Program-made: the position numbers and the translations under genes
In this document: positions 59,342 to 64,000 of the stretch, piece after piece
Layout: the number at the start of each line of letters is the position of its first letter
Numbering within the stretch: position 1 is the first letter of the stretch
IMG/VR virus record: IMGVR_UViG_3300017917_003053
Span: 89,003-153,002 of that record
Reading direction: 5' to 3' (one strand)
DNA: 64,000 nucleotides
Origin: a virus
The notes under the pieces: model-generated
What the model saw: the letters and a program-made list of their open reading frames with translations, nothing else
The model's database searches: none
What the model was told of the DNA's origin: nothing

Positions 59342-59369
59342 TTGACAAGCCGATAATCTACTGTAGAAT
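59342..59369 (+). promoter_or_regulatory. Class B promoter for the 70-aa gene
   Basis: TTGACA, 16 bp spacer containing GCCGATAAT, TAGAAT. Class B promoters share (G)CCGATAA inside the spacer. Confidence 0.75.
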
Positions 59370-60697: not shown

Positions 60698-60868
60698 ATG
60701 AATACTTATGATTGCTATGTTGGAAGTTCGTGGCGTGTTTTCAAACATGGTCGATTTATTGGCTATGTTGTGGCCTTTAGTGAGTATTATGCTTGGCAAA
60801 AGGCTAAGGATAAGTATGGTAATGATTTGAGAATAGAAAAGGTTTTGGCCCCATCTTCTAACGGTTAG
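60698..60868 (+). CDS. Small, probably leaderless protein overlapping tRNA-Glu (56 aa)
   Basis: 57 codons, M-N-T-Y-D-C-Y-V-G-S-S-W-R-V-F. There is no room for a ribosome site between the -10 box and the ATG; the expected transcript starts at the ATG. It resembles a small beta protein. Its last 22 nt lie inside the tRNA gene. Confidence 0.55.
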   Translation: MNTYDCYVGSSWRVFKHGRFIGYVVAFSEYYAWQKAKDKYGNDLRIEKVLAPSSNG

Positions 60869-60918
60869 GAAATCGGATTTTCGCTCCGAGAATCGGGGTT
60901 CGAGTCCCCGTGGGGTCA
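60847..60918 (+). tRNA. tRNA-Glu (UUC)
   Basis: A full cloverleaf: acceptor GGCCCCA with TGGGGTC (one G-U), D arm TTC/GGA, anticodon stem TCGGA/TCCGA with a seven-base loop TTTTCGC (anticodon UUC, Glu), T arm CGGGG-TTCGAGT-CCCCG. The discriminator is A and no CCA is encoded, so host CCA addition is needed. Phage tRNAs often match codons of the phage. It lies directly before the structured RNA unit. Confidence 0.9.
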
Positions 60919-61002
60919 TTAGAAAGTGTATCAGCATATCCTATCGGATTGCCGGTCGTGCTGATAGTCAGCCAACATAAAAGATTCTTGAAGAGATAGG
61001 GG

Positions 61003-61030
61003 TTGACAGGACGATAATAGAGTGTAGAAT
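61003..61030 (+). promoter_or_regulatory. Class B promoter for the structured RNA
   Basis: TTGACA, 16 bp containing ACGATAATA, TAGAAT. No coding frame starts after it; the next credible gene begins 611 nt later under its own promoter. Confidence 0.75.
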
Positions 61031-61036
61031 ACAAAG

Positions 61037-61610
61037 TATAACGTGTGGGCCAGAGCGAGGCAACGAACTGATCACTCGACCTTTGGTGGTGCAACTCCAC
61101 CTCCATACGCTTGTCACCAACGAAACTCCGATTCATTCGGTGTGCTACCCTCCATAATGAGATCATAGCCTATATTGGTGACACAAACTTGCGTAGGTCT
61201 AGCGACTAGATTGGGATAACCTGTACGATAAACCTACGGCTGTTATGCAGCGTGGGGTTGCCTAGCGGGGTTATACGTTAGGATAGTATACCAATCTATG
61301 GGGGTGCGATTCCACCGCTACGCGCTAATACTTTATGGGTGACGGTTTTCCGTATGACGAGGCAAAGCACAGCAGAGCGAAGGAAACTTCCATGTGGCCT
61401 CCGAAACTGCGAAAGCAGGAGTAGAAATAGGTGCCACCCATAAAAAATATGCCAGTAGCCGTTACTTAGAGTCAGATAGTTGAGTCATGACCAATCTATG
61501 CTGATTTCCGTGGGCGGTTTCCACCAGTTTTTACCTTGCTCCAAGGGTTCATAATATCGGAGTATTGGTGGATTATAGGGATGGATCGTAAAAGTCCCGC
61601 TGGTTTTTTC
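61037..61610 (+). ncRNA. Candidate large structured phage RNA (about 574 nt)
   Basis: A transcription unit with its own class B promoter and a T6 end, but no credible coding frame. Perfect helices include TGTCACCAA (61112) with TTGGTGACA (61175), 9 bp; TTTATGGGTG (61332) with CACCCATAAA (61435), 10 bp; CGTAGGT (61192) with ACCTACG (61232), 7 bp; GAGGC (61359) with GCCTC (61397). Hairpins include CTGC-GAAA-GCAG (61407) with a GNRA loop, ACGG-TTTT-CCGT (61342), CCGA-TTCAT-TCGG (61128) and TCTAG-CGA-CTAGA (61198). A T-arm-like stem with a TGCAACT loop (61085) lies near the 5' end, and a CGTGTGG/CCATACG stem (61042/61103) brackets it. The 3' end pairs ACCAG (61523) with CTGGT (61600). Size and tRNA neighbourhood resemble GOLLD and ROOL RNAs, without a sequence match I can assert. 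Confidence 0.65.
61600..61610 (+). terminator. 3' end of the structured RNA
   Basis: CTGGT followed by TTTTTTC; CTGGT can pair with ACCAG at 61523-61527. A T run after a stem fits termination, though the stem is long-range. Confidence 0.45.
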
Positions 61611-61613
61611 TTA

Positions 61614-61641
61614 TTGACTTGCCGATAACTAATGGTATAAT
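61614..61641 (+). promoter_or_regulatory. Class B promoter for the 67-aa gene
   Basis: TTGACT, 16 bp containing GCCGATAACT, TATAAT. The ATG is 7 nt after the -10, at the predicted start base. Confidence 0.75.
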
Positions 61642-62588: not shown

Positions 62589-62848
62589 TGGAATGGATTA
62601 GTTTTTTCGGTCCTCGTCGTCCTATTAACGGACAGAAGGTTTATTACTTCGGTGAGTATATTGGTGTGTGGCGTGGAGAGTATGCTTATTCTCCAAATGA
62701 TCCAGTAAGTCCACATCTTATATTTTGCGATGAATCTTTTGGTGTTGTGGATCGTATGGATGCCCCTTGGTGGCAGGTTTATGAAGGACAACCCAAACCT
62801 CCACCTCCAGAACAAACTTACCCGCCAGATTATCCTTGGAAAAACTGA
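62588..62848 (+). CDS. Small protein (86 aa), end of unit
   Basis: ATG at 62588 overlaps the previous stop. M-E-W-I-S-F-F-G-P-R-R-P-I-N-G-Q-K, ending in a Pro-rich tail. Its last 19 nt overlap the 3' end of the antisense HNH gene. Unknown function. Confidence 0.6.
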   Translation: MEWISFFGPRRPINGQKVYYFGEYIGVWRGEYAYSPNDPVSPHLIFCDESFGVVDRMDAPWWQVYEGQPKPPPPEQTYPPDYPWKN

Positions 62849-63396
62849 TTACTTTTCTTGATATTCTCTATAGCCCATAAAGGCTGTAAATTAGAATAGT
62901 GAAAACATTGTTTTTGTTGAATAGGATCAGAGAGATCAAATGAAGCACACGGCTTGATATGATCAATATGCCACTTTCCGTAATTATCCCAACCCATACC
63001 TTCCGTAAACATTGATGATAAATAAACTTTTAATTCTTCGATAGAACATCCTATTAGAGCCATCGTTGATTCAGATTTACTATTACGTTTAATGGCTTTA
63101 TAAATTCTACCTCTCAAGTTTATCTTAATTTTGTAATCTAGATCTGTTTGCCTACGGTGTTTTGAACGTTCTCTTTTACGAGCATTGACTTTATCTTTAT
63201 TGAGTTTTTCTAGCTCTCTTTGTCTACTTTTATATTTCAAATAATATGAGGCTGCGTATTCTTTATACTTACCTTTACGAGACATAGAACGACATTCTTT
63301 ACATTGATGAGCATATCCATTTTTTCTAGTGTTACGTTTATGAAAATTAATTACTGATAATTCTTGTTTACATTTATTACAAATTTTTGTATCCAT
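62830..63396 (-). CDS. HNH endonuclease with zinc-ribbon N-terminus (188 aa)
   Basis: N-terminus C-N-K-C ... C-K-E-C (residues 5-38) forms a zinc ribbon; a basic middle (R-K-R-E-R-S-K-H-R-R) leads to H-I-D-H-I-K-P-C-A-S-F near 143-153, then N-L-Q-P-L-W. Free-standing HNH homing nuclease type. It is the only minus-strand gene in this region and more AT-rich than its neighbours, a sign of later insertion. A late-motif copy lies upstream. Confidence 0.8.
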   Translation of the reverse strand: MDTKICNKCKQELSVINFHKRNTRKNGYAHQCKECRSMSRKGKYKEYAASYYLKYKSRQRELEKLNKDKVNARKRERSKHRRQTDLDYKIKINLRGRIYKAIKRNSKSESTMALIGCSIEELKVYLSSMFTEGMGWDNYGKWHIDHIKPCASFDLSDPIQQKQCFHYSNLQPLWAIENIKKSNQFFQG

Positions 63397-63872: not shown

Positions 63873-63900
63873 TTGACTACGCCGATAATAGATGTATACT
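63873..63900 (+). promoter_or_regulatory. Class B promoter at the right edge
   Basis: TTGACT, 16 bp containing GCCGATAATA, TATACT. Confidence 0.75.
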
Positions 63901-63910
63901 TAGGGAAACA

Positions 63911-64000
63911 ATGGACGGGGATAGCCACAATGATATCAAAAGAGGCTATCTGAAATGCTGGTCGAGTATGGCGGAAGCCGACATTGTTTTTCCTAATCCT
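63911..64000 (+). CDS. Small gene running past the window, short leader
   Basis: ATG at 63911 is about 4 nt from the predicted transcript start and lacks a ribosome site. The frame (M-D-G-D-S-H-N-D-I-K-R-G-Y-L-K-C-W-S-S-M) is open to the window end. Might be another short-leader gene, or an untranslated RNA. Confidence 0.35.
   Translation, partial: MDGDSHNDIKRGYLKCWSSMAEADIVFPNP

Follow-up and report, generated by a model that had tools for sequence, protein, structure and literature searches.

The IMG/VR virus record from which the window comes is 153 kb long, and the window is its final 64 kb. The array that we describe lies among small genes close to the end of the record, downstream of a tRNA-Glu gene (60846-60919), and comprises the following features (positions are those of the window).

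61003-61030, + strand: array promoter TTGACAggaCGATAATagagtgTAGAAT, sigma70-like, TTGACA-N-CGATAATA-N-TAGAAT
61037-61610, + strand: non-coding transcription unit, 574 nt between the promoter at 61003-61030 and the next promoter
61042-61109, + strand: unit T, probably tRNA-like; 7-bp acceptor-like stem CGTGTGG/CCATACG and one long hairpin
61085-61101, + strand: T-arm of unit T, GGTGG-TGCAACT-CCACC, from sequence and fold
61113-61182, + strand: unit D; closing helix (T)GTCACCAA/TTGGTGAC(A) and two inner hairpins
61191-61323, + strand: unit A, a core unit; closing stem GCGTAG/CTACGC and a pseudoknotted inner domain
61197-61206, + strand: D-like hairpin of unit A, with a T-arm-like hairpin at 61300-61316
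61207-61214 with 61291-61298, + strand: helix P2 of unit A
61216-61222, + strand: 5' strand of the unit A pseudoknot, pairing with 61268-61274
61268-61274, + strand: 3' strand of the unit A pseudoknot, within the loop of hairpin P5
61332-61444, + strand: unit C, closed by the 10-bp perfect helix TTTATGGGTG/CACCCATAAA, with the hairpin GCGAAAGC (GAAA loop)
61451-61603, + strand: unit B, the core 3' unit, closed by GCCAG/CTGG(C/T)
61604-61609, + strand: U6 end of the array, immediately 3' of the closing helix of unit B
61614-61641, + strand: promoter of the following protein gene, a motif match
63873-63900, + strand: promoter of standalone unit F, a motif match
63906-63991, + strand: standalone unit F, a further structured RNA gene belonging to the repertoire of the array

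The units follow one another in the order T-D-A-C-B, all on the + strand. Every unit has a closing helix of its own, and short A/U-rich linkers such as ACAATACAA connect them. The sequence-only reading had proposed a promoter at 61003-61030, about 574 nt without a credible frame, a T6 run and the promoter of the next gene; all of these are present, the first promoter at exactly the position given. The longest + strand ORF within 61037-61610 is 41 aa, and the single long minus-strand ORF (102 aa) overlaps the tRNA-Glu gene. We rejected a protein-coding gene on the shortness of the + strand ORF and on the alignments of homologs, which contain indels and compensatory base changes and in which no conserved translated frame appeared. 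Three of the domains proposed from the sequence are real and correspond to unit D (61112-61183, closed by a 9-bp helix), unit C (61332-61444) and unit B (the 3' domain). A fourth, at 61192-61238, is structured but is merely the 5' part of the larger unit A, and unit T was absent from the list.

This part of the window contains five copies of the promoter motif (starts at 59342, 60664, 61003, 61614 and 63873). The motif precedes the first unit in 59 of 63 clusters, in most of them by 5-42 nt. This group promoter has a conserved spacer (TTGAC-N-CGATAA-N-TATAAT) and provides a handle for finding transcription units across the phage group. The CTGGTTTTTTC end is likewise present in relatives whose array terminates at B. 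Genes that flank the array in the window also lie at most 3 kb upstream of 36 of 37 arrays and downstream of 26 of 35, and the arrays occupy a common genomic slot across relatives. An endonuclease VII/HNH-like gene (PHROG 1035) lies on the minus strand at 62830-63396, 1.2 kb downstream, between the array and standalone F, and is a possible candidate driver of local recombination. We also observed a recurrent intergenic element at 60938-60975 (roughly CCTAATCC-NNNC-GGATTTG-CGGTCTTGGCGATAGTCAGCGA), the core of which is present in 57 distinct copies across loci (e.g. L161, L301, L341, L348) against about 5 expected. It is often positioned immediately 3' of standalone F, C and tRNA genes and is possibly a 3'-end or terminator element. 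A Pistol self-cleaving ribozyme (L234:5102-5164, 51 bits) was found about 3.4 kb downstream of one array.

The predicted fold of the whole stretch is modestly unusual (z = -1.94, with 3 of 100 shuffles equally good), and at this value folding alone is insufficient as proof of a structured RNA. The structure is well above chance because homologs conserve the fold and covary. For unit A, we aligned 62 matches to a covariance model built from nested helices only, the E-values of which are rough; this model (R1) scores 109.8 bits on the window copy. The 50 distinct rows of the alignment have standard pairs in 95.1% of pair cells, a figure to be read with the alignment being fitted to its own nested helices, and 25 of 46 pairs changed on both sides. 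The two-sided changes amount to 153 cells compared with 38.4 in shuffles, with none of 500 shuffles as high; the shuffle control ignores relatedness, which is partly covered by a slid control in which shifting the partner by 1-3 columns lowers pairing from 95% to 33-42%. The pseudoknot of unit A is paired in 97.0% of cells though it lies outside the alignment model, and one of its pairs is C-G in 27 sequences and G-C in 22.

Unit B (40 to 42 homologs) has 20 two-sided pairs compared with 13.3 in shuffles, its pairs being derived also from alignment folding, and retains a hypervariable helix in 36 of 39 sequences. Unit D keeps 250 of 252 pair cells among 12 distinct homologs, with 3 pairs changed on both sides; unit C is paired in 159 of 160 cells of 5 full homologs (4 two-sided pairs), and unit F in 741 of 810 cells of 54 distinct homologs (7 two-sided pairs). 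The folds of D and C are more stable than shuffles (z = -3.7 and -3.3). Units B, E, F, G, I, K and M all covary above shuffle controls. We found no homologs of unit T, which is present in this genome alone, and its structure (z = -1.8) comes from a single sequence; an HMM match in L180 that might have been a second copy appears to be coding sequence. The check for covariation among homologs called for by the sequence-only reading thus gives strong support for structure, and we find that selection acts strongly on the RNA structure of the units.

The sequence-only reading had assigned the stretch to the GOLLD or ROOL class or to a new one, and it is the new class that holds, as neither family model gave a match over its cut-off. 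A scan of all 4,227 Rfam families at permissive and gathering thresholds returned, apart from tRNA and the Pistol ribozyme noted above, only a few chance matches below threshold, with none for HEARO or OLE. In dedicated searches of 19 whole records from array-bearing or related phages, the best GOLLD (RF02032) score was 14.7 bits against a cut-off of 150, and ROOL (RF03087) gave no match at E 10, as was also the case in control genomes. Identity with GOLLD, ROOL, HEARO or OLE is therefore rejected. No relative was found among cultured phages by blastn with the window or a relative as query, or among plasmids, and a scan of GTDB genomes for the core pattern of unit A gave no match. The terminase of the window has many close IMG/VR relatives; against cultured phages, for the most part Bacillus phages and Microcystis phage MaeS, its identity is at most about 25%. 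Related terminases occur in contigs that had been binned to Alphaproteobacteria, Flavobacteriales and SAR202, three taxa unrelated to one another. Because these bins disagree and the identity to cultured phages is so low, we assign no host.

Comparison of whole records by blastn located homologs of the stretch in more than 10 relatives, as pieces and in other combinations. The array-bearing relatives number in the dozens, all of them uncultivated IMG/VR phages. Using profile HMMs for 16 units and a collection enlarged by pattern scans, we identified 105 distinct unit clusters (71 arrays and 34 standalone F), with the contigs being selected by pattern so that these frequencies are not population estimates. 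Sixty-three of the 71 arrays contain at least two units, in 43 different orders and with all units on the same strand. The unit A model was found in 12 of 48 records searched, most of which are fragments. The arrangement is ordered: A is upstream of B in all 52 arrays having both, cassettes C, G, J, N, O and Q are confined to the slot between A and B, units E, M, F and R lie upstream of A, and H and I lie downstream of B. K and D are mostly found before A and twice after B. Unit A is duplicated in L161, L232, L246 and L279.

Units are exchanged between arrays. The pairwise identities of A and B are nearly uncorrelated across 61 arrays (Spearman 0.09, Mantel p = 0.085) although the two are neighbours or lie only a few hundred bases apart; we conclude that recombination between A and B is close to free. 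Within A, the correlation between the 5' and 3' parts is 0.71 (p = 0.001), and within B that between its two parts is just 0.15, indicating that exchange also takes place inside unit B. D or E can be more than 95% identical between arrays whose A units are less than 75% identical. Units also occur outside the arrays: C is a gene of its own in L361, with a promoter and a T-run; F is mostly standalone, in most cases with its own promoter, and is sometimes first in an array; and in some loci M-D, M alone or B alone is present while the A...B core is missing. The proposal of one large structured RNA does not survive these comparisons, in which independent units are swapped, dropped, duplicated or found standing alone. 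The locus is almost certainly a modular non-coding RNA array and not a monolithic RNA, and its units are probably separate autonomous effectors.

The principal alternative is that the units stay joined as one large scaffold RNA, the transcript folding or multimerising as a particle with the cassettes as arms or cargo. GOLLD and ROOL fold or multimerise as RNA particles, as visualized by cryo-EM, with a homo-oligomeric cage as the hallmark of GOLLD. The stretch resembles GOLLD in being a large structured phage RNA near tRNAs, and ROOL (a phage RNA of about 570-660 nt near tRNA islands) in size and position; in addition, A is always upstream of B, and GOLLD also has a conserved 3' region and a variable 5' region, sometimes with tRNAs in the linker (PMC12286853). 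The units described here are separable and reorderable, unlike GOLLD, no modular units are described for ROOL, and homology to either was not found. The occurrence of C and F as single genes and of M-D, M or B without the core also argues against a scaffold, as does the independent variation of A and B, which is unlike that of contacting parts of one fold. We therefore regard a scaffold as unlikely and retain the reading of separate units.

Several units resemble tRNA. Unit K has the acceptor, D-arm GUAGCGUAAUGGUAGC and T-arm GGUGGUUCGAUUCCACC of a tRNA body and scores 30.3 to 33.3 bits against the tRNA model RF00005 (gathering threshold 29; L211, L234, L247), and in its alignment the normal anticodon arm (7-nt loop, 5-bp stem) is replaced by variable inserts of several unrelated kinds. 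Unit I contains tRNA domains (observed at L161:12484-12560 and in L232, L268 and L272) for which ARAGORN mostly reads an odd or missing anticodon. The closing stem of unit A is flanked by two small hairpins that exist in two versions: a 4-nt loop plus a T-loop of the UGCGAUU type, as in this window, or a longer loop containing AUGC, accompanied by a hairpin with GCRU. The two hairpins change version together in the alignment, which suggests a loop-loop contact similar to the tRNA elbow. Units T and A of the window gave no match to RF00005 even at E 10, and they are probably tRNA-like as judged by the layout of their stems and a T-loop motif. No tRNA likeness is visible in units B, C, D, E, F and G.

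Such a T-loop is no proof of a non-decoding role. A phage tRNA that seems normal (an apparent tRNA-Trp in L197) has a loop of the UGCAAUU type as well, and for this reason we dropped the GUGC-type T-loop as a mark of a non-decoding tRNA. A general T-loop hairpin pattern retrieved mostly unrelated tRNAs and coding sequence, but also L161. Separately, tRNA-like hairpins with a UGCAAUU T-loop were observed in seemingly non-coding positions of other viral contigs (L118:2489-2545, L124:2210-2266), and L124 contains a weak match to the unit A model elsewhere (14.5 bits, E 0.04).

In a second alternative, the units are unusual tRNAs or translation helpers (tmRNA-like or suppressor-like) that act on the ribosome and favour phage protein synthesis. 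Real tRNAs are nearby, K has a full tRNA body, and ACCA or GCCA follows about half of the 62 matches to unit A. This proportion led us to reject a conserved NCCA end of unit A, and the CCA end is not conserved; a tmRNA match and a tag frame are both absent, anticodon arms are replaced or absent, and most units are not tRNA-like. A translational role is thus improbable. A third alternative holds that the units are selfish or neutral RNA cassettes of little benefit to the phage, spread by homologous recombination through the shared linkers or by homing endonucleases. The high rate of exchange, which reaches even the inside of B, and the nearby endonuclease VII/HNH-like gene are consistent with this proposal; the compensatory base changes, which indicate strong selection on structure, together with the dedicated promoters and fixed slots, make it distinctly improbable. 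A cis-regulatory leader or attenuator is suggested only by the position of the stretch directly upstream of a gene and is very improbable given the U6 end, the separate promoter of the next gene at 61614 and the variation of downstream genes among relatives.

The best overall explanation, to which we give slightly less than an even chance, is that the array is an arsenal from which the phage draws stable, tRNA-like RNAs to bind host proteins involved in RNA handling or defence. We infer host-protein binding because each unit is kept as a fold while the set is exchanged fast, in the manner of host-interaction genes, because several units keep the tRNA body and lose the decoding end, and because counter-defence is an established or proposed use of phage tRNAs and of RNA mimics (PMC10264068, PMC11555353, PMC10651486). 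The sequence itself shows a dedicated RNA operon, in which a single promoter drives the five independently folding units T-D-A-C-B up to the terminal U run, and the units are interchangeable cassettes in fixed slots around the conserved A...B core. In this proposal, the linkers would be cut to release the units as separate stable RNAs, as in tRNA operons or the T4 stable RNAs, and, with less confidence than for this processing, the units may then act in trans as effectors that bind host RNA-handling proteins. K, I and probably A and T would present a tRNA body that is unable to decode. The likeliest targets would be defence proteins that cleave tRNA or sense RNA, or else other enzymes that bind tRNA, and shifting defence repertoires may drive the rapid exchange of cassettes. 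A specific role as decoys or in counter-defence, which is argued by analogy, is possible and is held tentatively. Equally speculative is an integron-like arsenal, in which a fixed slot would combine RNA effectors from a common pool of at least 16 new RNA families, several of them having a payload in place of the anticodon arm on a tRNA chassis, with each unit perhaps addressing a different host protein.

The closest known systems in spirit are the T4 RNAs rnaC and rnaD (species 1 and 2), stable phage non-coding RNAs of 139 and 119 nt that lie head to tail with the tRNA cluster. T4 rnaC (L368:909-1047, minus strand) has the T-arm CCGGGTTCGAATCCCGG in an enlarged tRNA-like body with a large replaced middle, the same design idea as in unit K without homology. 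A search of the T4 region with the 16 unit HMMs and the unit A covariance model gave a best HMM E-value of 0.017 and no covariance model match. The T4 RNAs differ in lying beside true tRNAs in one cluster, where cassette shuffling or slots are not known. To our knowledge, the function of GOLLD, ROOL and T4 RNA C and D has stayed unexplained for decades.

Phage tRNAs counter tRNA-cleaving defences, and phage tRNA arrays and anti-defence tRNAs share with the present locus the head-to-tail order of small structured RNAs, the tRNA bodies and a proposed role in counter-defence (PMC10264068, PMC11555353); in contrast, most units here are not tRNAs, and the tRNA-like ones are without a normal anticodon arm. 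Phages also deploy RNA mimics of CRISPR repeats (Racrs), a further case in which non-coding phage RNAs act on host immunity by mimicry (PMC10651486), whereas the units described here are longer multi-helix folds. The SegB homing endonuclease is reported to amplify anti-defence loci in a setting with a tRNA-cleaving defence system (PMC13096335). A literature search in which subscription journals were thinly covered found no described modular phage RNA array, and we therefore rate the unit families and the combinatorial architecture as new and treat the function as hypothetical. The locus is a new kind of viral RNA locus.

The array adds about 16 structured RNA families that are absent from Rfam, save for the tRNA-like parts within K and I, and shows modular shuffling at the level of RNA. 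Evolution has pre-divided the locus into pieces of 70 to 160 nt that are autonomous, can be swapped and have defined borders, and the function can therefore be tested unit by unit. The findings also suggest that a tRNA body can act as a natural scaffold carrying a non-decoding payload. Should the units counter host defences, the locus would be a multi-component RNA counter-defence locus.
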